Assembly (NCBI RefSeq): GCF_000516515.1
Contig: NZ_KI911784.1
Coordinates: 3,758,633 to 3,822,632 of the forward strand
Direction: 5' to 3'
DNA: 64,000 bases
From: Chloroflexus sp. Y-396-1
GTDB lineage: Bacteria > Chloroflexota > Chloroflexia > Chloroflexales > Chloroflexaceae
The notes beneath the pieces were generated by a model. It worked only from the letters and a program-made list of their open reading frames with translations. It was not told the origin of the DNA and made no database searches. The position numbers and the translations under genes are program-made. Positions 3,110 to 53,492 of this stretch are shown here, in pieces. Numbering within the stretch: position 1 is the stretch's first letter; every line of letters begins with the position of its first letter.

Positions 3110-6100
3110 TTACATGCCCACTGCTAGCTCACCATGACGTAACCGTTCGGCGAGGGCAATCGTCTCTGGTGACGGTTCCACATCGAGTTCGCGGGCCAGC
3201 GTTTCACTACAGCGTTGAAAAACACGCAGCGCGGCCGCACGATTGCCTTGCCGGGCGTATGCCATCATCAAGAAACGGTATGCACGCTCCCAGCAATTAT
3301 CGTGGGTGAGGATACGTTCGGCCAGTGCGATCAATTCCTCATCGCGCCCCTCTTCGGACAGGAACTGTGCTAGGCGATCAGCACTGCGCAGAAAGATGTT
3401 CCGTAACCGCTCTCGCTCGGCATCGGCCCATCCTTCGTAAAGGGCATCGGGCAGAAAATCACCGTGATAAAGCTGTAAAGCCGACCGAAGATGCTGCACA
3501 CCGTCGGTCGTCTGACCCTGATCGAGTAGATGCAATCCGGTTGCACATGCGCTACTAAACTCAGCACAGTCAAGCCAGATGTCTGCATTTGGACGCAAGC
3601 GGTACGCGCTCCCATCGCGAGCAACGAATGAGGATGTCGCTTCAGTGCGGTTCGGTTCCAGGACGCGGTAGAGTGTACTCAGCGCCACTTTAAAGTCACG
3701 AATAGCCGCTTCCGGACTGAGTTGTGGCCAGAGAAGTTCTGCCAGTTCATCGCGGTGAACCCAACGCTGGCGGTGAACGATAAGGGCCTGGAACAGTTGA
3801 CGTGCCTTATCGCGTTGCCATTCGCGAGCTTCGATTTCGTGATCACCGCGCCAGACCCGGAATACGCCGAGGGTTTGGATGCGCAACTGGTAACCAGGAT
3901 GAGTTTCTAGCCCACTCAGCCCTATGGATGCCAGCAGACGTTCAATATAATCCCGGTGAACACCACGGGCACGAGCAGCAAGCAGAATTGGTATCGCCCG
4001 TCGTGGCTGGGGGAGACCGAGGAAGGTAGGGCGGGTAAACAGATAGTCGTAGCCATGAGCTGCACTTAATTCGAGTGCCTCGGCGATAGCGGCAATGGCA
4101 GCGGCATCGTGGTGTTGTTCATGATACCCTAGGGCCAGCCAGAGAGCCGCAGCCGCTTGACCAAAGCGATCACTACAGGCGCGCAGATCGGCGCGGGCGG
4201 CGAGCAACAGTTCTTGCCCCTGTGCACATTGACCGGCAAGAACATGACTTGCACCGCGTTGAAGCTGGATCATTGCCCCCAACCAGAGATCACCGGCCCA
4301 GCGACAAAATGCCTGACCATCGGCTGCTGCTCGCTCGGCAGCAGCCAGATCACCGGCCATGCCGTAGAGACGGGTCAAGCCCCACAGTGGCTCTACCCGT
4401 AGTCGATCAACGCCAATGGCCTGACCTTCGGCCAACGCCTGATGGTAGTAGTCGATAGCCCGTTCGCGCGCAGCAATTCCGGTAGTGGCGCTCTTGAGCA
4501 ACCAAGCATGACCAATGCGGGCATAAGCGACTGATATAATGAAGCGTGAGTTGCGCTCGATGCCCACCTGTACACCCTCTTCTGCAAAGGCAAGCGCTTG
4601 ATCTGCATCGCCCTCGAACGCGGCGATCAGCGCCAGCACCAATACTGCTTCGCGATGACCGCGTGGCGCAGGCGTTGCCCCGCGAGCGGTTGCTATCCGC
4701 TCCTGGGCATGCCATGCCTGTAGCAACGTGCGTGCGGCGGCCAGTTGACCGGTACGCAACTTCACTCGTGCACTGAGTAGATCAGCCGCCGGGCTGGCAG
4801 TGCGTAACTGGCGTGCCTGTTGCTGTAACGCCTCGGCCTCTGCCGGTTGACCCATATTAAGCTTATTCTCGGCCAGTAGCTCAAGAACACGTGCCCGTGC
4901 CACCTGATCTTCCAGCCCTTCGCTCACCCGTAAGGCCTCTTGCAAGACACTTTCCGCCTGAACCGGCTGTACCTGATCGATATAGACTTGAGCCTGCCCG
5001 TACAGGGCACGTGCCAGCTCAGCGCGATCCCCGTGCTGTCGACTAATCGTTTCGGCCTGTACATACCAGTTCCGGGCTTCGTCAAAACGTGCTCGAAAGC
5101 GGTAGAGATCACCGAGATAGCACAGTAAACGCGGACGTGTTGCAATCAGATCGGCCGGCAGCGCATCGATCCAATCAGCCAGTGTATCGAGCCGCCCATT
5201 TCGTAGGGCCTCTTCACCGGCGACCGTAATCGCATCGGCAGCCGCAGTCACATCACCGGCGGCAAACCAGTGATAAATTGCCTCCTCCGCATAACCGGCA
5301 GCAGCATAATACGCGGCAGCCCGTCGATGCCGTTCAGCCAGATCGGGATCATGATGCGTTTGCTGACGTAAGAATTCGTGGAACAGGTGATGGTACCGGT
5401 AATGATTGGCATCTAATTCAACCAGGAATAGATCGCGGTCGCGGATGTGGGCCAGCAGATCGGCACTGTCGGTTGCCTGGCGTACCGCATCACAGGCAGC
5501 AGCAGACAAGATACGGAGGGGTGCAGTGGCGCGTAGAAAACCGGCAATCGCCGGTGGCTGACGGTCGAGCACGTCAGATGCAAGAAAATCGAACAAGGCG
5601 GCCAACGATGCCGGACCATTGGCGAGCAATTCGCGGACACTGCGCGCCTGACCACTTCGTAAACCCTGCCAGACCAACTGGAGCGCAATCGGCCAGCCTT
5701 CAGTATGATGATTGAGCAGATCAACCTCGGCATCGCTCAGTGTCATTCCGAACACATCGTGGAAGAGAGTCGCAATTTCATCACGGGTAAAAGCCAGTGC
5801 CTCACGGTGTAATTCAAGCACTTCCCCTCGCGCTCGCCAGCGCATCAACTCACTACTTACAACAGGATAGCGGGTTGCGATCAAGAGACTCAACCACGAT
5901 GGTGCATACGCGATCAGCCGCTCGATCAACGCTCGAATATCGGCAGAGCCGGCAACAAAATGAAAATCATCGAGGATCAGTAACGTTGGTTGTTGATCGA
6001 CACTGGCTAACGCATTGAGCAACCCGTCAATCGTCTGACTCCAGGTGGTGCGGTCGGCTGGATGGGCTTGAAGCGCAGCCAGAGCTGCTAGCTCGCCTTG

Positions 6101-7018: not shown

Positions 7019-8140
7019 TTATTCCCGTCCAAGCAAATCGAGCAGCTCTGTATCACCGCGTACTGCCGCATGAGCTACGGCCCGTCCACAAAGAGCACCG
7101 ATCACGTTACCGGTTCCGTTATACGCCCCAATGGCCCAAACCCCGTGCCGAACCTGACGGGCGATCGGCAAGATGCTGTCAGCCCGATAGGATACCTGTG
7201 CGGCCCAACGGTACGCAATCGCAGCACGACTACCGATCCGTTCGCGTAAGATGTGCTCAAGCGCCATCTGCACCGGTTGGGATGGTTCTGGGGCAGCATC
7301 CCATTCCGCAGCGGCAAACCGATCACGGCACCCGCCAAGTGCGATTCGTCCATCTGGCAACTGCTGCCAGTAGTCGTACCCCCAACGGGTATAAACGGGG
7401 CGTGGAATGGTGCAGTGGGGATCAGGTGCGGTTGCCAGCATCTGTAGTCGGGCGGTACGTACCGTACCACGTAATTCGGGAAGCAATCGCTCAAGACCGC
7501 CATCGACGGCGACGATCACGTAGCGGGCGTGGATGCGTCCATTAGGGCAATCAACAGTAGTATCGGTAATAGCGAGGGCAGGAGTATGGGTAAAAAGGAG
7601 TGCTCCTCCTCGCTGTGCCTGTTCGGCCAGCCAGAAGCAACGGTGGAGTGGCTGAAAAGCACCGTCGGTCGGAATAAATAACCCTTCACCCTCCGGACCA
7701 CGGTACGGTTCCACCGGCAGATGGCTGGCGCGCATTGCCTGCATTTGCGCTCGACAATCGGCTTCTTCTTCCGGTGATGCAGCGATACGCAACGATCCGA
7801 CTCGACGCACAATGTTCGGCATCAGCGCCGCCATGCGCTCAATTTCGGCAACGGTCAAGCGGTAGATCGTCGCTGCCCGCTCCCAGCCAATCGCGGCGAC
7901 GGCATCGTGGTAGAAAGCGGCTAGCCCGGCGAGCAAGAAGCCACCGTTTCGCCCGGCAGCGCCACCACCAACCGTCGTTGCGTCGATCCCGACGACGCTG
8001 ACACCGATCGCAAGCAGTTCGTAGATACAGCTCAGACCCGAACCACCTAGACCGATAACGCATACGTCCGTCGCTATCGTATCGGTGAGCGACGGGAAGG
8101 ATGGAGGTGGAATATCTGCCCAGACCGGTTGATTTAACAT
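7019..8140 (-). CDS. FAD-dependent oxidoreductase, DAO family
   Basis: A 373-residue protein of the D-amino-acid oxidase/glycine oxidase fold. The FAD-binding motif 'VCVIGLGGSGLSCIYEL' lies at about 27-43, and 'GGGAAGRNGGFLLAG' (about 58-72) is typical of the sarcosine oxidase/gamma-glutamylputrescine oxidase branch. The C-terminal 'GVWAIGAYNGTGNVIGALCGRAVA' region completes the FAD site. It should oxidise a primary or secondary amine or an amino acid with release of peroxide; the substrate is unknown. The gene is flanked by long gaps and seems monocistronic. The ATG at 8140 has only a weak ribosome-binding site. Confidence 0.8.
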   Translation of the reverse strand: MLNQPVWADIPPPSFPSLTDTIATDVCVIGLGGSGLSCIYELLAIGVSVVGIDATTVGGGAAGRNGGFLLAGLAAFYHDAVAAIGWERAATIYRLTVAEIERMAALMPNIVRRVGSLRIAASPEEEADCRAQMQAMRASHLPVEPYRGPEGEGLFIPTDGAFQPLHRCFWLAEQAQRGGALLFTHTPALAITDTTVDCPNGRIHARYVIVAVDGGLERLLPELRGTVRTARLQMLATAPDPHCTIPRPVYTRWGYDYWQQLPDGRIALGGCRDRFAAAEWDAAPEPSQPVQMALEHILRERIGSRAAIAYRWAAQVSYRADSILPIARQVRHGVWAIGAYNGTGNVIGALCGRAVAHAAVRGDTELLDLLGRE

Positions 8141-41786: not shown

Positions 41787-41824
41787 CACTGTACCATTGC
41801 ACACTACCAATTTACCATCATCGC

Positions 41825-41960
41825 GGTGACCCGTAGGCCCGGATGCCAGGGCGTAAAGGTGGAAGCTGGTGAGAGTCCAGCGCTGTGCCGCAACTGTAAC
41901 CGGCTACTACAAGCCGGAAGCCAGGACGCCTGCCGCGATAGAGTGTTCGTTCAGCCCTTC
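41825..41960 (+). promoter_or_regulatory. Cobalamin riboswitch (aptamer)
   Basis: The conserved B12-element blocks are in order: AAGGTGGAAGCTGGTGAGAG, then TCC, GCTGTGCCGCAACTGTAAC (41882-41900), and the closing box GCCAGGACGCCTGCC (41920-41934). It lies directly before the cobalamin operon and should shut it down when adenosylcobalamin is plentiful. The outer boundaries are approximate. Confidence 0.9.
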
Positions 41961-42022: not shown

Positions 42023-42051
42023 CCCCGACCGAGAAGGTCGGGGTTTTTGTT
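42023..42051 (+). terminator. Intrinsic terminator of the cobalamin riboswitch
   Basis: CCCCGACC (42023-42030) and GGTCGGGG (42036-42043) form a perfect 8-bp stem with loop GAGAA, followed by TTTTTGTTT. It sits between aptamer and first gene, so premature termination is the likely mode of control. Confidence 0.85.
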
Positions 42052-42076
42052 TATATGTCAACAGAAGGAGACGGTC

Positions 42077-42685
42077 GTGTCTGAGGAGACAACTGCACCG
42101 ATTGGGCCGGGGTCGTCGCCCGAAGCAGCGGCCCGCCGCAAGGCGGTGAGAGCGAGCCATGCACCGAAAGGGTTGGTCATTGTCAATACCGGTGAAGGGA
42201 AAGGGAAGACAACCGCTGCCCTGGGTATTCTGCTGCGGGCCTGGGGGAGAAATATGCGCGTCGGTGGTGTGCAGTTTATCAAGCACGAGCAGGCAAAGTT
42301 TGGTGAGTTGCGGGCGCTTGAACGAATGGGGATTACACTAACACCACTCGGTGATGGTTTTACCTGGACCAGCCGGAATCTCGACGAGACCCAAGCCCGT
42401 GCATTGCATGGCTGGGAAGTGGCCAAACAACAGATCACTAGTGGCAATTTCGATGTGTTCTTGCTTGATGAGTTTACGTATGTGATGCACTACGGTTGGC
42501 TGCCGGCGACTGAAGTTGTCTCGTGGCTCCGTGCGAACAAACCGCCGATGTTACATCTGATCATTACCGGTCGCTATGCGCCGGCCGAATTGATCGAGTA
42601 TGCCGATCTGGTCACGGAAATGCGTGAAGTAAAGCATCCGTTCCGCGATCAAGGGATTCGCGCCCAGCCAGGGATCGAGTATTGA
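42077..42685 (+). CDS. cobO: Cob(I)yrinic acid a,c-diamide adenosyltransferase
   Basis: A 202-residue CobA/CobO/BtuR-type enzyme that transfers the adenosyl group of ATP to the cobalt of reduced corrinoids. The P-loop '[20 protein letters not shown]' (about 37-56) and the acidic motif '[17 protein letters not shown]' are family hallmarks; the C-terminal '[11 protein letters not shown]' is also conserved. It starts with GTG at 42077, seven bases after AAGGAG; an upstream in-frame TTG lies inside the terminator. It is the first gene after the riboswitch. Confidence 0.93.
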
Positions 42686-42715: not shown

Positions 42716-45700
42716 ATGGGCGAACAGCTTAAGCGCAATATGGTGCAGCGACTCGATGGGCGGCTCGTGAATGCCGGTGCTCGTCGGGGGATGTTGATCG
42801 TCTGTGCCACCGGTTGCTGCTGTGGTCATACGGAACGTGGTTTTGCACCGGTTCCGACCGATCTGTATCATCAAGAATGGGAACGCCGCCGTTTGCGCAA
42901 TCGTGTGCATCTTAGTCAGGGTGGGTGTTTAGGGCCATGCCCGCTGGCGAATGTTGCCCTCTTGCTGTTCGATGGCCGTCCTTACTGGTTTCACTCGCTC
43001 AATGATCCGGCATTAGTACCAGTTCTGTACGATTTTATCGAAGACCTATTGGCTGCTGAGCGTCCTGTTGGTCCACCACCGGCACTGGCACCACATCTGT
43101 TCAACGGCTTTGCCTGGGATGGCGTAGAAGCTGCGACGGCTACCCTCGACCGTCTGCCGGCGATGGCCGGTAATGGGATTCTCGTTCTAAGTCAGGCCGA
43201 TACTGATCTCCTGGCCCTTGAGCAGGCGCAGGCCTTGCTCCCAGAAGGTTTTGCTCCGCTGTATATGGCGCATATTGGCCGTCTCACCGAACCAGCCGCG
43301 ATTGATCGTCTGCTCGAACAACATCTACCGGCTGCGGCAATTGTAGTGGTGCGGCTCCACAGTCCGGCTGCATTTTTGTACGGTCTGGAACGATTACAGC
43401 AGTGGGCTGCGGCTACCGATGGTTTTCTGCTCTGCCTGCCGGCAGTCGATGAGGTAGACCCCGATCTGATGGCCCGATCAACGGTGGGAGTACCATTGGC
43501 GATGCTGATCAGCGCCTATTTTCGGGCAGGTGGGGCGGTGAATCTGGCCAACGGACTGCAATGTCTGAGTGACCATCTGCTGGTGAGCGGATGGGGCTAC
43601 GATCCGCCAATTGAGCTGCCGTTACACGGGATGTATACCCCGCCACGACCGGCACGCCGTGGTCGCAGACAAGATGCAGCGACTATCACGGCGGCAGCAA
43701 GCGATGCACCGACAGTTGGGGTGCTCTTTTACCGTGCCCATCTTCTGAGCGGGAATACAGCGTTTGTCGATGCGCTGATCGCGGGCTTGCAGGCACGTGG
43801 TATGCAAGTACGTGCTGTCTACACACAATCGCTGAAGGCAACCGCTACCGACGGGTTGCCGATTGGGTTAGGATTGTTACAGCAAGCTGGCCCGCCGGAT
43901 GTGATCGTTTCGACTCTTAGTTTCGCGCTTGGTGCTGATGATCCGCATCCGTTCAGTCGTCTTGATGTTCCGGTGGTGCAGGCACTACTCGGTAGCAGCA
44001 GTCGTGAGGTGTGGCAACGCGATGGTCGTGGCCTTGGGCCGCTCGATACAGCCATGAACGTTGCTCTACCAGAACTCGATGGCCGTATCATCGGGGTGCC
44101 GATTGCGTTCAAGTCGCAGGAAGGGGAAACAGCCGCCCATTCATTACCGGATCACGAACGAATCGAGCGCCTAGCTGGGTTGGTCTGGCGATTGACCCAG
44201 TTGCGCCGGAAGCCGAACAGCCAAAAGCGGATTGCTATCATCTTGACGAATAGCAGCGCGAAAGCGCAACGGATCGGGAATGCTGTTGGCCTGGATGCAC
44301 CGGCGTCGCTGATGCGCATCTTTGCGGCCCTCCGTGAGGCTGGTTATGCCGTGGGTGAATTACCGGAGAGTGGTGATTCGCTGATTGCCAGTCTGATCGC
44401 ACGCTGTTCGTATGATGAGACCTGGCTGACAACTGAGCAGTTGGCACAGGCCTATCGTGTTCCTGGCGAAACCTATCGGCGCTGGTTTGCCGAATTACCG
44501 CTGCCGTTGCAAGAGGCTATGATCCGTCAGTGGGGACCGCCCCCCGGCCAGGCGTATGTACACCGCGGTGATCTGGCGCTGGCCGGAATGGAAGTTGGCA
44601 ACTGCTTTATCGCCCTCCAACCACCACGTGGCTACGATATGGACCCTGACGCCATTTATCACCGACCTGATTTACCGCCACCGCATAACTACTACGCCCT
44701 TTACCGCTGGTTGCGTGATGAATGGCGGGCTGATGCCATGATCCATCTCGGCAAGCACGGTACCCTCGAATGGTTGCCTGGTAAAGGGGTTGGTTTGAGT
44801 GCTCTTTGTTTTCCCGATCCCTTCCTGGCAGATATGCCTTTGATCTACCCTTTCATCATCAACGACCCCGGTGAGGGTACCCAGGCAAAACGGCGCGCCC
44901 ACGCGGTCATTGTGGATCATCTCACCCCACCGATGACAAGTGCCGGCGCATATGGTGATCTGGCCGAGCTGGCTCAACTGGTTGATGAGTACTATCGTAT
45001 GGAGCGACTCGATCCAACCAAGCTACCACTCCTGCAACGGCAGATTTGGAATGTGCTCCAACGTAGTCAATTGGCCGATGACCTGCGCTACATATTGCAG
45101 GCCGATCACGGTGATCATCGTCACGAGTGGGATGGTAGTGTGCTGGAGGATGGCACACCGACCGTTCTGGCCGAGCTAGAGGGGCGCGAGGTGGCCCATC
45201 TCCTCGAAGACATTGAAGGGTATCTGTGCGAGCTGACCGGTGCCCAGATTCGTGATGGGTTGCATATTCTCGGCACGTTGCCAGAAGGCGAGCAGTTCGT
45301 CGATCTCGTATATCATCTGCTGCGGTTGCCAAATCTCGATGCCCCTAGTCTGCCAGCCGCCGTCGCCACTGCACTTGGCGTTGACTGGTCGGCATTACAG
45401 GAAGCGCCAGGGCGGCGGCGCACTGGAGACGCCCACTTTTTGACGAATGCCGATCTGATTGAACACATCGAAACACTCTGTCGAACCCTACTGCGTCAGC
45501 TTTGTGATCACGACTGGGCTGCGTCGGCAATTGGTGAGGTGGTAGCACAGGTGCTACCCGGTTGCAGTGACAGTTCACCTATCTCGCAAGCCCTACACTA
45601 CGCCTGTGACCGGCTTGTGCCACGGCTCCGCCAGAGTGCCGCTGCCGAAATCGATCATTTGCTGGCAGCTCTGGCCGGGCGCTTCGTACCACCAGGGCCG

Positions 45701-46981
45701 AGTGGTGCCCCCACACGAGGAATGGCGCATGTGTTGCCCACTGGACGCAACTTCTACAGCCTTGATCCGCGTAGCGTGCCCAGTATGGCTGCCTGGGAGA
45801 CCGGCCAGGGGTTGGCAAATGATCTGTTACGCCGCTATCAACAAGAATACGGCGCCTGGCCCGAAAGTGTGGGAATCAGCATCTGGGGTACCAGTCTTAT
45901 TCGTACTGCCGGTGATGATGTAGCGCAGGTGATGGCCTTGTTGGGCGTGCGACCGCGCTGGCAACGCGAAAATCGGCGGGTTATCGGCTTTGAGGTTATT
46001 CCGCTCACCGAATTGGGTCGGCCACGCATCGATGTCGTCTGTCGGATCAGTGGTTTCTTCCGCGATGCGTTTCCTCATCTGATTGAGCTGCTCGATCAGG
46101 CGGTACAAACGATCATTGATCTTGAGGAACCGTTTGAGCTGAATTTCCCACGCAAACATGCTCATCTAACGGCGCAGACGTTGGCAGAAGGTGGTATGCC
46201 CATTGAAACGGCACAACGCGAAGCGCGCTACCGCATCTTTGGCAGCCCGCCAGGAAGTTACGGCGCCGGGATGCTCCCGCTCATCGACGGGCAAAACTGG
46301 GTGAACGATGCGGATCTGGCCAGGGTATATCTGCGTTGGGGTGGATATGCGTACACAAGCACTGAACAAGGGATACCGGCAGAGAATGCCTTTGCCGCTG
46401 CTCTCAGCACCGTTCAGGTCGCCACTAAAAATCAGGACAATCGCGAACACGACATCTTCGATAGTGATGACTATTTCCAGTTTCATGGTGGCATGATCGC
46501 GACCATTCGTGCACTTACCGGCCGCAATCCCGCCCGCTACTTTGGCGATAGCAGTGATCCTTCGCGACCACGCACCCGCGATCTACGCGAAGAAGCCCGT
46601 CGTGTCTTTCGGACGCGGGTGGTCAATCCGAAATGGCTGGACAGTATCCGTCGGCACGGCTACAAAGGTGGCCTGGAACTGGCAGCAACCGTTGATTACC
46701 TCTTCGGTTACGATGCAACCGCTCAGGTGCTAGCCGACTGGATGTACGAGCAGGTTACAGAACGGTATGTACGTGATCCGGAGGTACAACAGTGGTTGCA
46801 AGAAGTGAATCCCTGGGCGTTGCAAGCGATGGCTGAACGGCTCAACGAAGCAATTGGCCGGGGAATGTGGCGCAATCCCTCGCCAACAGCTCAGGCTGCC
46901 ATCGCCGAGATTCTGAACCAGGGTGAAGCTGCGCGCGAGGGACTGTCTACGGCAAATGACGACTATCGCGAATCAGCGTAG
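42716..46981 (+). CDS. cobN: CobN-type cobaltochelatase large subunit with N-terminal 2Fe-2S ferredoxin domain
   Basis: A 1421-residue protein. Residues about 85-1421 are the CobN/BchH-type ATP-dependent metal chelatase large subunit ('YYALYRWLRDEWRADAMIHL', 'GKHGTLEWLPGKGVGLS', 'MAAWETGQGLANDLLRRYQ', 'YGAWPESVGISIWGTSLIRT'). The first 80 residues are not part of normal CobN: they hold cysteines at 30, 34-36, 71 and 75 in the pattern of thioredoxin-like [2Fe-2S] ferredoxins ('VCATGCCCGHTERG', 'SQGGCLGPCPLANVALLL'). CobN inserts cobalt in the aerobic route together with CobS and CobT subunits; none is in the window, so BchI/BchD-type subunits elsewhere may serve. GGGGG precedes the ATG. Confidence 0.9.
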   Translation: MGEQLKRNMVQRLDGRLVNAGARRGMLIVCATGCCCGHTERGFAPVPTDLYHQEWERRRLRNRVHLSQGGCLGPCPLANVALLLFDGRPYWFHSLNDPALVPVLYDFIEDLLAAERPVGPPPALAPHLFNGFAWDGVEAATATLDRLPAMAGNGILVLSQADTDLLALEQAQALLPEGFAPLYMAHIGRLTEPAAIDRLLEQHLPAAAIVVVRLHSPAAFLYGLERLQQWAAATDGFLLCLPAVDEVDPDLMARSTVGVPLAMLISAYFRAGGAVNLANGLQCLSDHLLVSGWGYDPPIELPLHGMYTPPRPARRGRRQDAATITAAASDAPTVGVLFYRAHLLSGNTAFVDALIAGLQARGMQVRAVYTQSLKATATDGLPIGLGLLQQAGPPDVIVSTLSFALGADDPHPFSRLDVPVVQALLGSSSREVWQRDGRGLGPLDTAMNVALPELDGRIIGVPIAFKSQEGETAAHSLPDHERIERLAGLVWRLTQLRRKPNSQKRIAIILTNSSAKAQRIGNAVGLDAPASLMRIFAALREAGYAVGELPESGDSLIASLIARCSYDETWLTTEQLAQAYRVPGETYRRWFAELPLPLQEAMIRQWGPPPGQAYVHRGDLALAGMEVGNCFIALQPPRGYDMDPDAIYHRPDLPPPHNYYALYRWLRDEWRADAMIHLGKHGTLEWLPGKGVGLSALCFPDPFLADMPLIYPFIINDPGEGTQAKRRAHAVIVDHLTPPMTSAGAYGDLAELAQLVDEYYRMERLDPTKLPLLQRQIWNVLQRSQLADDLRYILQADHGDHRHEWDGSVLEDGTPTVLAELEGREVAHLLEDIEGYLCELTGAQIRDGLHILGTLPEGEQFVDLVYHLLRLPNLDAPSLPAAVATALGVDWSALQEAPGRRRTGDAHFLTNADLIEHIETLCRTLLRQLCDHDWAASAIGEVVAQVLPGCSDSSPISQALHYACDRLVPRLRQSAAAEIDHLLAALAGRFVPPGPSGAPTRGMAHVLPTGRNFYSLDPRSVPSMAAWETGQGLANDLLRRYQQEYGAWPESVGISIWGTSLIRTAGDDVAQVMALLGVRPRWQRENRRVIGFEVIPLTELGRPRIDVVCRISGFFRDAFPHLIELLDQAVQTIIDLEEPFELNFPRKHAHLTAQTLAEGGMPIETAQREARYRIFGSPPGSYGAGMLPLIDGQNWVNDADLARVYLRWGGYAYTSTEQGIPAENAFAAALSTVQVATKNQDNREHDIFDSDDYFQFHGGMIATIRALTGRNPARYFGDSSDPSRPRTRDLREEARRVFRTRVVNPKWLDSIRRHGYKGGLELAATVDYLFGYDATAQVLADWMYEQVTERYVRDPEVQQWLQEVNPWALQAMAERLNEAIGRGMWRNPSPTAQAAIAEILNQGEAAREGLSTANDDYRESA

Positions 46982-47007: not shown

Positions 47008-48075
47008 ATGGATCTGCTGCAAACGACGATCAATCAGATCGGGCCACTCGACGATCAGGCAGCTACTGCTGCGCGTCGCCGCCAGGATACGCTTACGAAG
47101 CCAGCAGGTTCACTCGGACGATTGGAAGAGTTATCGATTCGGATTGCCGGTATTACCGGACGCGAACGGCCACGCTTAACTACGCCGGCTGTGATTGTTA
47201 TGGCTGGCGATCATGGCGTAGCCCGCCAGGGTGTCAGTGCATTCCCACAAGAGGTCACGCCCCAGATGGTCTTGAACTTTCTGCGCGGGGGCGCCGCAAT
47301 CAACGTTCTGGCCCGTCATGTCGGCGCCCGCGTGATCGTGGTTGACATTGGGGTTGCGGCTGATTTGCCTGCCCATCCTGAGTTGATCAGTCGCAAGCTC
47401 GCCTATGGGACAGCCGATTTTACTCAAGAACCGGCAATGAGTCGAGACCTTGCTCGTCAGGCAATTGAAGTTGGTATTACCTGCGCTTATGAAGCCATCG
47501 ATAGCGGAGTAGACCTGCTGGCTACCGGAGAAATGGGCATTGCCAACACCACGGCAGCAAGTGCCATTGTCGCCGCGATCACCGGTCGCCCACCGAGCGA
47601 GGTCACCGGGCGCGGTACCGGGATTGATGATACCGGTCTGGCGCGCAAAATTGCGGTCATCGAAAAGGGGTTGGCGCTCCATCGTCCCAATCCGCACGAT
47701 GGTCTCGACGTGTTGGCAAAGGTAGGCGGCCTGGAAATCGGTGGCCTAGCTGGTGTGATCCTCGGCGCGGCGGCCCGACGGGTGCCGGTTGTCATCGACG
47801 GTTTCATTTCGGGAGCAGCAGCCCTGATTGCGGCCACGTTAGCACCTGCCGTCACGCCGTATCTGATCGCCGGTCACCGGTCAGTTGAGCGTGGGCATAG
47901 TGCCGTCTACAGTCATCTCGATCTCCAACCACTCCTCGATCTCAACATGCGGCTGGGCGAGGGAACCGGCGCGGTGCTGGCAATGTCACTCTGTCAGGCA
48001 GCGTGCAAAATACTCGACGAAATGGCGACATTTGCCGAAGCTGGTGTATCGGAAGGTGAGCAGCAATCGAAGTAA
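47008..48075 (+). CDS. cobT: Nicotinate-nucleotide-dimethylbenzimidazole phosphoribosyltransferase
   Basis: A 355-residue enzyme that makes alpha-ribazole phosphate for the lower ligand of cobalamin. '[20 protein letters not shown]', '[19 protein letters not shown]' and '[15 protein letters not shown]' are conserved family segments. The catalytic Glu is expected in '[13 protein letters not shown]' near residue 318. AAAGGAGG precedes the ATG. This is the CobT of nucleotide-loop assembly, not the chelatase subunit of the same name. Confidence 0.95.
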
Positions 48076-48101
48076 CACCGTATCTACAACGGAGGTCGAT
48101 G

Positions 48102-48848
48102 ATGAAGCGATGGCAGCGGTGGCTCATTGTCTGTGTAGGGGCGGCCCTCTTGCTGGTGTTTGAGGCGCAACCGGTATATGCGATGCACATCATGGAGGGG
48201 TTTCTCCCACCCCTGTGGGCGTTGTTTTGGTTCGTGGCGGTGATTCCCTTTTGGGTTATCGGCGTTCGTCGCCTCCGTGCACTCATCAGCGATACACCCG
48301 AGGTACGCCTCTTGCTTGGCTTTGCCGCCGCATATACGTTTGTGCTGAGCGCATTGAAATTGCCGAGTTTGACGGGGTCAAGTAGCCACCCGACCGGCAC
48401 CGGGCTCGGTACCATCCTGTTTGGGCCATGGGTGATGAGTATTCTCGGCTCGATCGTGTTGCTGTTTCAGGCACTCTTGATTGCGCACGGTGGTCTCACC
48501 ACCCTCGGTGCCAATGCGTTTAGTATGGCGGTCGTTGGCCCGTGGGTGGCATGGCTCATCTGGCGAAGCCTGAACGGACGCGCACCCTTCTGGGTGACCG
48601 TCTTTCTGGCGGCAGCGTTGGCCAATCTCTCGACGTATGTGGTTACGTCACTGCAATTGGCGTTGGCGCATCCCGATCCGGTGGGTGGGATCGGTGCTTC
48701 ATTTATCAAATTCGGTACCATTTTCGCCGTCACGCAACTACCGCTCGCGATCAGCGAAGGGATTCTGACGGTGTTGATCATGAATGCCTTGCAAACGAAT
48801 GCCAAAGCAGAACTGGAAGTCCTTGCGATGAAAGGAATCCGTCCATGA
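48102..48848 (+). CDS. cbiM: Cobalt ECF transporter substrate-binding subunit CbiM
   Basis: A 248-residue membrane protein with a cleavable signal peptide (about 1-27, ending 'QPVYA'), after which the mature N-terminus '[16 protein letters not shown]' carries the Met-His metal site typical of CbiM. About seven helices follow, with '[20 protein letters not shown]' forming the cobalt-binding region. GGAGG lies six bases before ATG 48102; an ATG immediately upstream at 48099 is less well spaced. It is first of the cbiMNQO set. Confidence 0.93.
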
Positions 48849-49144
48849 ACGCACAACCGTTATCCTGGCCGGTGGTGATCATCCTTGGGCTGATCGTCAT
48901 TGCCCTGACCATCACCCCGTTGGTGGTGATCGGTGGTACGGAGTTTGGTGGCGCTGACGTTGCAGCCGAAGAAGCGATCACTGCGATCAATCCCGACTAT
49001 GAGCCGTGGGTGACGCCGCTGTTTGAGCCGCCAGGGAGCGAAACCGAGAGTCTCTTCTTTGCCCTCCAAGCCGGGCTGGGCGCTGGGGTGATCGGCTATT
49101 TCTTCGGCTGGCAGCACGGTCGGCGTCAACGACGAGATCGGTGA
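48845..49144 (+). CDS. cbiN: Cobalt transporter accessory subunit CbiN
   Basis: A 99-residue protein with two membrane helices (about 8-30 and 72-90) and an extracytoplasmic loop '[20 protein letters not shown]', as expected for CbiN. It assists cobalt capture by CbiM. Start and stop overlap cbiM by four bases (ATGA), and cbiQ follows after three bases. Confidence 0.9.
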
Positions 49145-49147
49145 TCC

Positions 49148-49912
49148 ATGCTGCGGGTGATTGATCGCTATGCCTTTACCAATCGACTCCGAACGGTCGA
49201 TCCGGCGCAGAAGAGCGGGATTGCGCTGACCACCATCATCCTCTGTCTGATGCTCGACCGACCGTTGGTCAGTGGGCTGGCGCTCCTGTGGATGATCGGG
49301 CTGACCATCGGCTATGCACGAGTACCATGGCGCGTGATGATGGCGGTGCTGAGCGCCGAAAGTGTCTTTCTGGTGCTATCGGTGATCGGGATTGCGGTGA
49401 GTCTCAGCTTTGACGCATCGGCACATGCACTCCAGCTTGGGCCGATCTATCTGAGTATTCACCGCACATCGGTCCTCGTTGCGCTCCAGGTCTTAAGCCG
49501 TGCCCTCGGCTGCGCGGCTGCACTCAATTTCTTGATCTTGACGACGCCGCTGATCGATCTGATCGATCTCTTGCACCGATGGCGGATACCGGCCATCGTG
49601 ATTGACATCATGATGCTGAGTTATCGGGCTATCGTTCTGTTGCTCGATACGCTCGAGCGCATGGTCATCGCACAAAAGGCCCGACTGGGATATGCTTCCT
49701 GGCGTGCAACGCTGCGTAGCTCGGCGCTCATCGGTAGTCGGTTGTTCATCGCTGCATATCAGCGCAGTCGGATGCTCGAACAGGCGCTGATCGGTCGCGG
49801 ATTCTGCGGCGAGGTGCGCGTGTTACCGCTCAGGTATCGGTACGATCCGGTGTTGTGGGTATTCCTGGCGATGATGGTGATCACTTTCGGCCTGGCAAGG
49901 ATGTGGGGATGA
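49148..49912 (+). CDS. cbiQ: Cobalt ECF transporter transmembrane subunit CbiQ
   Basis: A 254-residue ECF T-component. 'RLRTVDPAQKSGIALTTIIL' opens the protein, followed by about five helices, and the coupling motifs 'MLSYRAIVLLLDTLERMVIA' and 'SRMLEQALIGRGFCG' (the Ala-Arg-Gly type signature that docks on the ATPase) lie in the second half. It links CbiM to the ATPase CbiO and overlaps cbiO by four bases. Confidence 0.92.
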   Translation: MLRVIDRYAFTNRLRTVDPAQKSGIALTTIILCLMLDRPLVSGLALLWMIGLTIGYARVPWRVMMAVLSAESVFLVLSVIGIAVSLSFDASAHALQLGPIYLSIHRTSVLVALQVLSRALGCAAALNFLILTTPLIDLIDLLHRWRIPAIVIDIMMLSYRAIVLLLDTLERMVIAQKARLGYASWRATLRSSALIGSRLFIAAYQRSRMLEQALIGRGFCGEVRVLPLRYRYDPVLWVFLAMMVITFGLARMWG

Positions 49913-50655
49913 CAACGATCCTGGCATTTGAAGATGTTTCGTACCGCTTTGCCGGTTCTTCAGTTCCGGCACTCCAAAACGTTTCCCTGACCATTCCCGC
50001 CGGGCAGCGGGTGGTGATTCTGGGGCGTAACGGCGCCGGCAAGAGTACGTTGCTGTTGGTCGGTGCAGGGCTGCTCCGTCCGCAACAGGGCAGGGTTCGT
50101 CTGGGTGATCGCCCGATCGACTATTCACGCACCGGCCTGCGTCATCTCCGGCACCATGTCGGACTGGTGATGCAATCACCCGATGAGCAGCTCTTCAGTG
50201 CCAGCGTCTGGCAAGACATCAGTTTTGGGCCACTCAATCTCGGATTACGCCCTGCGGCAGCAGAGCAAGCCGTGCGTGAAGCTGCTGCGTTGTGCGATAT
50301 TACCGATCTGCTCGACCGGCCTACCCATGCATTGAGTGGTGGTCAAAAGGCACGAGTCGCGCTGGCCGGAGTGCTGGCGATGCGCCCACAGTATCTGCTG
50401 GTTGATGAAACGACATCCGGTCTTGATCTGTGGGCACGACAGCAGATGGTTCAGGTGTTTGAACGACTCGTTGCGCAAGGACGAACCGTTGTGTTGGCGA
50501 CTCATGATGTGACCCTGGCCAGACGCTGGGCCGATCTGGTGATTGTGTTGCACGCGGGCAGCGTCGCTGCCGTCGGTTCGCCCGAACAGATATTGAACGA
50601 TACCGCACTCCGGTTGCTCATTGCTCCACCAGAGGTATGGTGTGATGGTAATTGA
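49909..50655 (+). CDS. cbiO: Cobalt ECF transporter ATP-binding subunit CbiO
   Basis: A 248-residue ABC ATPase. Walker A is 'ILGRNGAGKSTLL', Q-loop 'VGLVMQSPDEQLFSASVWQD' (the DEQ motif typical of ECF ATPases), signature 'LSGGQKARVALAG', Walker B 'YLLVDETTSGLD' with the Pro of the usual DEPT replaced by Thr, and the His switch 'VVLATHD'. It powers cobalt uptake. It overlaps cbiQ by four bases and cbiB by eleven. Confidence 0.93.
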   Translation: MTTILAFEDVSYRFAGSSVPALQNVSLTIPAGQRVVILGRNGAGKSTLLLVGAGLLRPQQGRVRLGDRPIDYSRTGLRHLRHHVGLVMQSPDEQLFSASVWQDISFGPLNLGLRPAAAEQAVREAAALCDITDLLDRPTHALSGGQKARVALAGVLAMRPQYLLVDETTSGLDLWARQQMVQVFERLVAQGRTVVLATHDVTLARRWADLVIVLHAGSVAAVGSPEQILNDTALRLLIAPPEVWCDGN

Positions 50656-51568
50656 ACAGCTATGCCAGCGTTGCACCATTGCCCTGCTGGCACTGGCAAT
50701 TGATTACAGTCTGGGCGATCCACCAGACCACCTGCATCCGGTTGCGTTGATGGGGCGCTGGTTACGACTGGGCGAACAGTACGCACCGGATACAGCACTG
50801 GCGCGTCTAACCTGGGGCGCTGGTTGGTTAGGCCTAAGTTGGTGGTTGGGCAGCAGCGTTGCGTCCTGGCTGCCGCAGCACTGGTTGGTACAGAGTGGGT
50901 GTGCCTCGTTGCTGATGGCTTACCGTGGGTTAGATCGGGCTGTAGCCGAAGTAGAAGCCGCACTCGCAAGCGGTGATCTGGTTGAGGCGCGTCGATTACT
51001 GGGCTGGCACCTGGTCAGTCGGCCTACCGCCGATCTCAGTGCGGCTGAGGTTGCCGGGGCTGCAATAGAGTCGCTGGCCGAGAACCTCAGTGATAGCGTG
51101 ATCGCACCCCTCCTGGCGCTATTGATCGGCGGTCTACCGGCAATGGTAATCTACCGTTTTACCAACACTGCTGACGCAATGTGGGGCTATCGCACACCAA
51201 CCTACGAGCATCTAGGGAAAATTGCAGCACGCTGCGACGATGGCTTCAACATCATACCGGCTCGCCTGACGGCGATCCTGATTGCACTGGCAGCGCAGAT
51301 CGTCAACCGGCGTGGACGAGAGGCTTGGGACATCGCACGACGTGACGCAGGCAAGACGGCTTCACCCAATGCGGGCTGGCCGATGGCGGCAATGGCCGGG
51401 GCGCTCGATACGATACTCACGAAGCGCGATCACTACGCGCTTGGTAGTGGATCGCATGTTCCCGATGCCGCCATGATCGCGCAGGCCCGACAGATCGTGC
51501 GTGTGGCGGTAGGGATGGTTGTGGTCGGGTTAGGTATCGGCGTGGTATTCCAGCGCCGGCAGAGGTAA
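50645..51568 (+). CDS. cbiB: Adenosylcobinamide-phosphate synthase
   Basis: A 307-residue membrane enzyme of the CbiB/CobD(Pseudomonas) family that joins (R)-1-amino-2-propanol phosphate to adenosylcobyric acid. 'DYSLGDPPDHLHPVALMGRW' at the N-terminus, 'AAIESLAENLSDSVIAPLL' and 'NTADAMWGYRTPTYEHLGKI' in the middle, and 'ASPNAGWPMAAMAGAL' near the end are family hallmarks. About four to five membrane helices are expected. It overlaps cbiO by 11 bases and its TAA overlaps the ATG at 51568. Confidence 0.93.
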   Translation: MVIEQLCQRCTIALLALAIDYSLGDPPDHLHPVALMGRWLRLGEQYAPDTALARLTWGAGWLGLSWWLGSSVASWLPQHWLVQSGCASLLMAYRGLDRAVAEVEAALASGDLVEARRLLGWHLVSRPTADLSAAEVAGAAIESLAENLSDSVIAPLLALLIGGLPAMVIYRFTNTADAMWGYRTPTYEHLGKIAARCDDGFNIIPARLTAILIALAAQIVNRRGREAWDIARRDAGKTASPNAGWPMAAMAGALDTILTKRDHYALGSGSHVPDAAMIAQARQIVRVAVGMVVVGLGIGVVFQRRQR

Positions 51569-51573
51569 TGGCA

Positions 51574-52971
51574 ATGACGAAGACAGCACTTCTCTTGATT
51601 GGACACGGAACCGACGATCCAGACGGCCTTGCTGAATATCACCAACTGGCGAGTTTGGTGCAACAACGGCTCGATTGCTTTGTACAACCCTGCTTTCTAG
51701 AGCTGGCCGATCCCCCGATCGGTCAGGCGCTTGATGAGTGTGCTCGCGCCGGTTATCGGTGCATCATCGCCCTACCATTGCTCTTGGGAGCTGCTGGTCA
51801 TCAGAAGAACGATATTCCAGTGGCCTTGCAGCAGGCGCGATTACGCTGGCCTGACGTCACCATTCACTACGGCGCTCCGCTTGGCGTCCAGTATGCTCTA
51901 CTCAAAGCGTTGGCTGACCGGTTGCATGCGGCTGAAGCGGCAGTACCGCCGGTTCCTCGCGCCGAGACTGCGCTGGCGCTGATCGGACGAGGCAGCAGCG
52001 ATCCCGACAGCAATGCCGACGTTGCACGTATGGCGCGTTTGTTGTGGGAAGGGCGCGGCTATGCTCACGTTATGTATGGCTTTTACAGCATCACCACGCC
52101 AAGGGTGCCCGAAACGATAAACGCTTGTGTTGCGCTTGGTGCTCGTCGGATCATTGTGATACCGTATCTGCTCTTCAGCGGTCGCATTGTGCAACGGATC
52201 AGGGCACAAGTCAACGACGCACGCACACGCTACCCGGATCATGACTTCGTAGTGACTGAACACCTTGGGCTTCACGAAGGTGTCATTACCGCTATCCAAC
52301 AACGGTTTCAAGAGGTAACCGAGGGGTACGCCGCAGTAAACTGTGATCTTTGTAAATACCGACGCCTGTTTCCAGGTTACACCGCCGACTTTGGTCGGCC
52401 ACAGACCAGTGATCACGAACACGGGTTGCGTGGCGAGACCTCAACCGACGGGATAAGAGCCATTTTGCCGCCACGCTACCGTGGCGGTCGTCCGGTAAGT
52501 GCTGCACCGATGAGTGCAGCGCCGCTCGTCTTCGACGAAACCGGGCAAGTCGCCTGGGATCGCATTTGGGGCGGCGATGATCCAAACAACCCCTTCTGTG
52601 AACTGGCATTAGCCGGTGGCCCACCTCATCGCGGTACCCTGCTCGAACCGGTTGATCCGGAAACCATACGGGTCGATCCAGAAGGCTACGCCCGTGTCAT
52701 TGCTGAACTTCGCCGCGCCTTGACGATGGTGACCGATCTGCCGGTCACTACCGATGTCGCACCAGGCTGGATTGGTCTGATTTGCGAGAGCGAAGAGATG
52801 GCCATCTGGCTGTTACGTGCGATCATCGTAGAAAATGTCAGTGTACGACGGGAAGATCGCACCTTGCTGTTGCCCGCAGGCCCACAGTTTCGCCTTGATG
52901 GAGAGATCAAAAACGTGGTCACGGCAGTCGCCAAGACCTACCACTACTGGAAAGAGCATATTCAACGATGA
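51574..52971 (+). CDS. cbiX: Sirohydrochlorin cobaltochelatase CbiX with C-terminal iron-sulfur/DR2241-like domain
   Basis: A 465-residue protein. Residues about 1-255 are two CbiX repeats: 'TALLLIGHGTDD' and 'LLLGAAGHQKNDIP' carry the metal-binding His residues of the first, and 'LALIGRGSSDPDSNADVARM' starts the second. A 'VNCDLCKYR' motif near residue 275 matches the CxxC iron-sulfur site of long CbiX proteins. The remaining part (about 320-465) is an extra domain ending 'NVVTAVAKTYHYWKEH', which I relate tentatively to the domain fused to CbiX in Deinococcus DR2241. It inserts cobalt into sirohydrochlorin, the early-insertion (anaerobic) step. AGAGG suits ATG 51574 better than ATG 51568. 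Confidence 0.88.
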   Translation: MTKTALLLIGHGTDDPDGLAEYHQLASLVQQRLDCFVQPCFLELADPPIGQALDECARAGYRCIIALPLLLGAAGHQKNDIPVALQQARLRWPDVTIHYGAPLGVQYALLKALADRLHAAEAAVPPVPRAETALALIGRGSSDPDSNADVARMARLLWEGRGYAHVMYGFYSITTPRVPETINACVALGARRIIVIPYLLFSGRIVQRIRAQVNDARTRYPDHDFVVTEHLGLHEGVITAIQQRFQEVTEGYAAVNCDLCKYRRLFPGYTADFGRPQTSDHEHGLRGETSTDGIRAILPPRYRGGRPVSAAPMSAAPLVFDETGQVAWDRIWGGDDPNNPFCELALAGGPPHRGTLLEPVDPETIRVDPEGYARVIAELRRALTMVTDLPVTTDVAPGWIGLICESEEMAIWLLRAIIVENVSVRREDRTLLLPAGPQFRLDGEIKNVVTAVAKTYHYWKEHIQR

Positions 52972-53492
52972 ACAGCACTGCATGCCATATCTTTATCCTG
53001 CATGATCTGGGTGATAACATCACCCAATTAGCTCAGGCAATTGCTGATGGCGTCACATCTGTGCCTGGTGTGACGGTCAAGATCAGCCAACCCAATCATG
53101 CCACGAAAGCCGATCTGCTCGAAGCCGACGGTATCATTATCGGTACGCCAAACTGGACGGGGATCAAAGGCACGCTCAAACGCTGGCTCGACACCACCGG
53201 CGATCTGTGGGAAGAGGGTAGCCTGGCCGGGAAAGTAGGTGCCGCCTTCACCAGCAGCGCCGGACGACATTCGGGTACCGAGTTTACTCTACTCTCGGTT
53301 TTACACTGGATGTTGGGGAGCGGCATGATTATCGTTGGTTTGCCGTGGAGTGAAACGATGATCCGATCCGGATCGTACTACGGCGCAACCGCCGTTGGGT
53401 CAGTTACAGAGGAAGATTTGGCTCAGGCGTATGCGTTGGGCCAGCGCGTCGCGCACGTAGCAGTCCAATTACGGCGAGGAGCAACGCCATGA
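52968..53492 (+). CDS. Flavodoxin-like protein within the cobalamin operon
   Basis: A 174-residue flavodoxin/WrbA-fold protein. 'CHIFILHDLGDNITQLAQAI' replaces the normal phosphate-binding loop, 'ADGIIIGTPNWTGIKGTLKR' and 'AAFTSSAGRHSGTEFTLLSV' are the usual FMN-binding loops. It overlaps cbiX and cbiC by four bases each, so it is translated as part of the pathway. The role is not established; likely options are the reduction of cob(II)yrinic acid for CobO or electron supply to an earlier step. The first loop is atypical, so FMN binding should not be assumed. Confidence 0.8.
   Translation: MNSTACHIFILHDLGDNITQLAQAIADGVTSVPGVTVKISQPNHATKADLLEADGIIIGTPNWTGIKGTLKRWLDTTGDLWEEGSLAGKVGAAFTSSAGRHSGTEFTLLSVLHWMLGSGMIIVGLPWSETMIRSGSYYGATAVGSVTEEDLAQAYALGQRVAHVAVQLRRGATP

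Follow-up and report, generated by a model that had tools for sequence, protein, structure and literature searches.

The window, by which we mean the whole 64,000-nucleotide stretch of Chloroflexus sp. Y-396-1 DNA that was analysed, holds a cobalamin operon that begins with a riboswitch and continues in the order cobO, cobN, cobT, cbiM, cbiQ, cbiO, cbiB, cbiX, a WrbA-like gene, a cbiC-like gene, cbiD, cbiET and a CbiG/CbiH-like fusion, the end of which resembles the CysG N-terminus (the WrbA, CbiC and CbiG models score under cut-off in this operon). The cobN product carries an additional N-terminal domain, here assigned to the thioredoxin-like [2Fe-2S] ferredoxins (TLFs). The relevant features are:

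41807..41951 (+), cobalamin riboswitch upstream of cobO-cobN (Rfam RF00174, 60 bits)
42047..42685 (+), cobO, corrinoid adenosyltransferase, directly upstream of cobN (PF02572, NF004637, TIGR00708)
42716..43057 (+), predicted N-terminal six-cysteine TLF domain, CobN residues 1-114 (AlphaFold2, PDB matches, cysteine conservation)
42803..42823 (+), first cysteine cluster, residues 30-36 (Cys30, Cys34, Cys35, Cys36; from the translation)
42926..42940 (+), second cysteine pair, residues 71-75 (Cys71 and Cys75, CLGPC; from the translation)
43058..43174 (+), linker, residues 115-153 (pLDDT; TIGR02257 starts at residue 154)
43175..46981 (+), CobN body (TIGR02257 and PF02514; 7c6o and 9uk9 align here)
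47008..48075 (+), cobT, DMB phosphoribosyltransferase and not the chelatase subunit CobT, the gene after cobN (TIGR03160 over cut-off)
48099..50655 (+), cobalt ECF transporter genes cbiM, cbiQ and cbiO (TIGR00123, TIGR02454 and TIGR01166 over cut-off)
51568..52971 (+), CbiX-type (early) chelatase with a CDLC cysteine pair (PF01903; translation)
52968-53489, WrbA/FMN-reductase-like flavoprotein gene (NCBIfam scores under cut-off)

Early-pathway genes thus coexist with CobN, and the C. aurantiacus genome paper reports the same for that species (PMC3150298). That paper names the gene beside cobN as the cobT of the chelatase, apparently having mixed up two genes of one name. The CxxC pair and long C-terminal extension of the CbiX-type enzyme may mark a second Fe-S site on a chelatase of this operon, and the WrbA/FMN-reductase-like gene encodes a possible electron donor. 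ATPase/VWA partner subunits for CobN are represented elsewhere in the genome by two frames over the TIGR02442 cut-off; CobS (TIGR01650) was not found in the source genome.

The open reading frame 42716-46981 (+) encodes, from an ATG start, a CobN of 1421 residues, identified by the TIGR02257 equivalog (1215 bits against a cut-off of 822, spanning residues 154-1404); all other CobN and BchH models listed remain under their own cut-offs on this frame, and the PF02514 match is restricted to residues 267-1390. Cysteines occur at exactly the positions given in the initial annotation (30, 34, 35, 36, 71 and 75), the next being residue 240. That annotation confined the domain to 42716-42960 (residues 1-81), which places it correctly and makes it too short, the conserved domain reaching to about residue 114 (nucleotide ~43057). 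Beyond it, linker residues 131-144 have pLDDT below 50 in a 1190-residue CobN model (overall pLDDT 74.9). A Pfam search with the first 115 residues gave no match at E up to 1, and a known Pfam family for the domain was ruled out after scanning the window and 15 members, which returned stray matches only. That the extension is an artefact, from a false start codon or cysteines placed by chance, has a negligible probability, as both frame and domain are shared by 22 loci belonging to the class of the window (the source genome is one of them) and the domain recurs in further phyla.

Prediction by AlphaFold2 from 65 aligned copies gave an N-terminal domain with pLDDT 90.6 and pTM 0.82. The three Foldseek matches with E below 0.001 are all complex I chains, and the matches ranked after them include HydC, the Aquifex ferredoxin and A. 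vinelandii FeSI. Alignment of the model by VIA-align gave Z 10.4 and 2.0 Å over 82 residues for A. vinelandii FeSI (5abr), Z 10.3 for the Aquifex ferredoxin (1m2a) and Z 10.4 for the HydB N-terminus (7q4v_B), superposition on 5abr and 1m2a lying at Z of about 10 and 2.0-2.4 Å. Profile A4 retrieved 5abr at 2.4e-6 and HydB-type chains at 1e-4 and 1.8e-3, and a single-sequence search matched FeSI weakly (0.0023). Given the structure matches, and the profile matches to FeSI and HydB-type chains, we are confident that the predicted domain belongs to the TLF fold family; a thioredoxin-like fold, on which the initial annotation depended, is indeed what the model returns. The domain falls outside the Azotobacter-type 2Fe-2S ferredoxin equivalog NF041613, against which it scores 21.2 bits (cut-off 195).

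Within this family the domain is set apart by its cysteines. The four that characterise the superfamily (C-x4-C, then C-x3-C) are present, read as C30-x4-C35-x35-C71-x3-C75 or as C30-x5-C36-x34, and compared with the published TLF spacing C-x4-C-x27-34-C-x3-C (PMC6250708) the middle stretch is one residue longer and the remainder matches. Two further cysteines, which create a CCCG motif, distinguish the six-cysteine group from other TLFs. The full pattern C-x3-CCCG-x33-C-x3-C is present in all 84 CobN-class rows (which include L044 and L046, whose fetched pieces showed no CobN body), in 8 of the 9 rows classed as COG0523-linked and in 5/5 classed as nitrile-hydratase-linked, one row of each of the latter two classes (L160 and L086, respectively) being assigned by tree only. 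The tree comprises 111 rows, L171, L174, L176 and L179 having been left out of 115, and has few columns for its rows. In the class linked to YHS domains the first loop is longer (x6 in 6/6; middle x33 in five, x34 in one), and six of seven distant rows combine a shorter first loop with a longer middle (x2, x37).

In alignment A3, with 34 rows, none of the six cysteines varies. Across 115 non-redundant copies of all classes, derived from 138 loci (matches with E up to 1e-8 and a span above 85 residues, identical sequences removed), they are retained at position 30 in 113, 34 in 111, 35 in 112, 36 in 114, and 71 and 75 in 115; the departures amount to seven gaps and one case each of Leu at 34, Val at 35 and Leu at 36. 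Asn79 is kept in 115/115. This conservation, in close and distant relatives alike, excludes a chance origin of the domain and bears out the expectation that the cysteines would be shared. It is in the number of conserved cysteines, six and not four as read from these alignments, that the analysis goes beyond the initial annotation.

In a subset of the distant copies, read at three loci in two genomes, a TGA codon stands in frame at the centre of the CCC triplet:

L171 (-), TGA just above 6258
L179 (+), TGA just before 1737
L180 (-), TGA just above 6237

Both genomes encode SelB, which is over cut-off in 4/4 genomes searched (G000 and G297 included), and an Rfam scan of the three loci returned a single tRNA only. 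This suggests that the TGA may be read as selenocysteine, which, if true, would mark the middle CCC position as chemically active. The TGA variants, together with the Leu at 34 in L161, speak for Cys36 as a putative cluster ligand, and the four-cysteine relatives L208 and L210 (C-x4-C-G) speak for Cys35.

Comparison of CobN architecture across Chloroflexota, proposed with the initial annotation, confirmed the fusion. In the window's own class, full-length CobN matches of at least 56% identity start at query residue 1-6, the sole exception being L028 (genome G029, same family), whose 66% identical CobN matches from residue 154; its frame starts directly behind cobO, and the 1.5 kb fetched upstream of cobN hold no trace of the domain. 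A second set of CobN proteins (L031-L034, ~40% identity) starts at residues 117-190 and likewise lacks it, as do the three further CobN/BchH-family proteins of the source genome. A scan of 400 genomes of the phylum gave a domain match in 56, 31 of the 67 rows lying in frames of at least 900 amino acids and about five of the 67 (E 1e-5 to 6e-4) resembling other TLFs. Restriction of the domain to Chloroflexota was rejected, since other phyla have it on CobN: among 80 of 176 relatives, isolates with the domain belong to Chloroflexota, Deinococcota, Bacteroidota and Acidobacteriota, and metagenome-assembled genomes labelled otherwise are found too. Some of these labels are doubtful, the domain of L079 ('Rubrobacter') reading identical to that of L024 from the window's own class. 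Plasmid records add seven matches (Deinococcus five, Granulicella, Spirosoma), six annotated as CobN and one with no gene listed, and of 101 genomes from the phylum to which G507 (Meiothermus) belongs, seven match CobN, six of them with the domain. The claim that the domain is no part of standard CobN therefore stands for the solved CobN chains, which align only from query residue 188 (7c6o) and 154 (9uk9), and fails as a general statement, as the fusion is a widespread architecture across phyla.

This distribution weighs on the proposal that the domain is a redox or oxygen sensor switching the ATP-dependent chelatase. Deinococcota and Bacteroidota, phyla of aerobic life, carry it on CobN too, and it also occurs in proteins devoid of CobN, where a chelatase switch makes no sense. 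A sensor would suit C. aurantiacus, which is reported to grow with and without oxygen and to have both CbiK/CbiX-type and CobN chelatases (PMC3150298), and we nevertheless regard this role as highly improbable.

Metal handling is indicated by the copies outside CobN. A COG0523 gene is present in 11 of 34 non-CobN loci (10 distinct) and missing from 23, the distant loci L169-L173, L177 and L178 having none as neighbour. In G475, G470, G460 and G391 the distance from such genes to standalone copies is 0.15 to 2.8 kb, with one more gene at 13 kb. In six genomes 13 of 16 CobW_C genes fall within 6 kb of a copy where ~0.03 would be expected, a count made in genomes picked for copies near such genes and partly close relatives, and leaving out two further genomes with nine CobW_C matches. 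The idea that the domain replaces CobW was not kept, PF02492 being found in 13/14 and PF07683 in 7/14 control genomes, so that presence alone carries little information. A WD40 gene is also part of the group: Pfam identifies it in L064 and L168, and inspection by eye in L070 and L071 (L071 being the same contig as L175). Genes for a ZnuA-type transporter and a Fur-family regulator occur in the standalone cluster L070 and, by eye, in L064 too; the metal concerned therefore need not be cobalt. The Herpetosiphon-order genome G042 has a second copy, L174, which lies between COG0523 genes and is interrupted by ~1.5 kb of other sequence (5411-5548 and 7055-7483).

In three loci the six-cysteine domain is fused to NHase_beta_N (5e-14 to 9e-16):

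L069 5368-6849, TLF-NHase_beta_N fusion behind a nitrile hydratase alpha gene
L072 4805-6834, the same arrangement
L113 5057-6567, the same arrangement

The preceding frame in each encodes a nitrile hydratase alpha subunit with VCTLCSC, the reported cobalt-type motif (PMC3323583), and the distance from its end to the start of the aligned part of the fusion is 2 to 29 nt; the alpha subunit is found in 3/3 genomes with the fusion and 0/14 controls. A further copy (L082) lies about 400 nt behind another nitrile hydratase alpha gene. In the YHS class (L162-L167, six members) a YHS domain follows the six-cysteine TLF C-terminally in 5/5 proteins scanned; L164 adjoins CbiM (CbiQ and CbiO by eye), and L162 an HMA P-type ATPase. 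Judged by these settings the CobN domain belongs to a six-cysteine subfamily that appears to recur as an add-on to systems loading transition metals, cobalt in particular, and gene neighbours and sister copies suggest that it may act in metal handling or in electron supply during cobalt loading.

A structural or vestigial Fe-S site, dispensable for catalysis like the 4Fe-4S tail of CbiXL, would agree with a review stating that the Fe-S centres of several chelatases are not required for activity (PMC7689651) and with the L028 CobN, which does without the domain. Such a site is difficult to reconcile with the strong conservation of the six cysteines and Asn79, or with the repeated fusion to other metal-related domains, and we judge it improbable.

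Electron supply is a stronger contender, and for this the neighbouring enzyme CobO is instructive. The window cobO frame has no TLF. In relatives, certain cobO frames just upstream of cobN, with PF02572 or TIGR00708 over cut-off at the C-terminus, have an N-terminal TLF that matches the ferredoxin models NF041612, NF041613 and PF01257, all under cut-off, and whose cysteines (15 distinct sequences) are arranged C-x4-C-x35/37-C-x3-C with no CCCG. Representative fusions, with the separate four-cysteine genes of Meiothermus-phylum genomes, are:

L013 266-1489, cobO-TLF fusion next to cobN
L017 5720-6799 (-), cobO-TLF fusion next to cobN
L018 5736-6923 (-), cobO-TLF fusion next to cobN
L028 333-1424, cobO-TLF fusion next to cobN; others exist
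L208 7650-8033, standalone four-cysteine TLF gene
L210 5103-5510, standalone four-cysteine TLF gene

Because many loci come from the same genomes, the cobO tally uses distinct domain sequences. Of the 87 such sequences of CobN type, 37 have cobO no more than 600 nt upstream, and in 12 of these 37 the cobO frame includes a TLF; in the other 50, to which every Bacteroidota and Acidobacteriota row belongs, cobO is missing from that stretch. The L028 locus has its TLF on CobO and none on CobN, and the Chloroflexus loci on CobN only, so that neither is without one. A separate four-cysteine TLF gene comes immediately after cobO in L208 and L209. The L208 and L210 genes adjoin genes resembling, by eye, a B12-type ABC transporter.

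CobN and CobO, consecutive enzymes of the pathway, can thus each carry a TLF. Between cobalt insertion and adenosylation Co(II) is reduced to Co(I), in the classical aerobic pathway by CobR, a separate flavoprotein (PMC7242693), and the CobO-fused TLF is a candidate built-in reductase for this step. By this account a TLF on CobN, or on CobO in relatives, would reduce Co(II) to Co(I) for adenosylation by CobO in place of CobR. The fold is that of electron carriers, the CobO fusions, the alternation between L028 and Chloroflexus and the separate genes behind cobO all favour it, and the WrbA/FMN-reductase-like gene of the operon would be in keeping. The electron donation proposed in the initial annotation gains weight because CobO, encoded next to cobN, is fused to a four-cysteine TLF in relatives. 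It leaves unexplained, however, the two extra invariant cysteines and the copies in cobalt nitrile hydratase, YHS and COG0523 settings that have no corrinoid enzymes, and the 50 of 87 CobN-type loci with no cobO just upstream also count against it. We consider it a tentative possibility.

We narrowly prefer to electron supply, at a probability of roughly 0.4, the reading in which the TLF domain of CobN is a metal-handling accessory serving cobalt entry, which is favoured because the COG0523, cobalt-type nitrile hydratase and YHS settings have no corrinoid enzyme near. A [2Fe-2S] cluster would most likely be held by four cysteines, Cys30, one of Cys34-36, Cys71 and Cys75, leaving two spare adjacent thiols that could serve transient metal binding or thiol redox. 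Tethered to CobN, the domain would act beside the chelatase site, where it may hold Co(II) bound for the corrin, or keep it reduced, as a step in cobalt insertion. Delivery to it by a CobW-type protein lacks operon support, a COG0523 gene occurring in the fetched flank of only 1 of 74 CobN-type loci and nowhere in the 64-kb window, so that the present CobN is not among the COG0523-linked copies. Against metal handling stands the L028 CobN, and the weight of this reading is lowered, and that of electron supply raised, because the canonical TLF on CobO suits electron transfer better. One redox-active thiol domain could serve both.

A broader reading, which we think rather unlikely, makes the six-cysteine TLF a metal-loading module not described before, employed on CobN and alongside cobalt nitrile hydratase: as a cysteine-rich acceptor, or as a redox relay, it would stand between COG0523 metallochaperones or importers and their client cobalt enzymes. 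Together with the CobO TLFs it would then unite insertion, reduction and adenosylation of cobalt in one built-in relay. The open-access literature consulted yielded no ferredoxin domain on CobN or nitrile hydratase, nor, in what these searches returned, on CobO. Already known are TLFs linked to cobalamin synthesis (CbiW; PMC6250708, PMC5948670) and unexplained Fe-S centres on chelatases (PMC7689651). Cobalt supply to late chelatases under scarcity and the reason why chelatases carry Fe-S centres are described as open points (PMC7689651, PMC7895991), and we infer a further one, namely which reductant acts on Co(II) ahead of adenosylation in the absence of a known CobR. A 116-residue domain common to cobalt chelatase and cobalt nitrile hydratase operons, and adjacent in relatives to a CobO with a ferredoxin of its own, offers a small, expressible handle on these three questions.

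Among known systems the solved CobN chains share the body of the protein (query residue 188 to 1404 for 7c6o, 154 to 1393 for 9uk9), the aligned part lacking a TLF. CbiXL of Bacillus megaterium resembles CobN here, with its predicted cluster, in being a cobalt chelatase to which an Fe-S region of uncertain purpose has been added, but is a class II enzyme with a C-terminal 4Fe-4S site (PMC7689651). CbiW of the same organism, a TLF ferredoxin listed by name among proteins of B12 biosynthesis (PMC6250708, PMC5948670), belongs to the same pathway but is a separate protein. The CobO-fused TLFs of Chloroflexota (L013, L017, L018 and others) share pathway and operon and sit on the neighbouring enzyme, but have the canonical four cysteines in place of CCCG. 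The thioredoxin-like [2Fe-2S] ferredoxins themselves (FeSI, the Aquifex ferredoxin, NuoE, HydC and the HydB N-terminus) have the same fold, placement of the cysteine pairs and GC-x3-C; the CobN domain, with its predicted cluster, differs from them in two more conserved cysteines and in its fusion to a class I chelatase.
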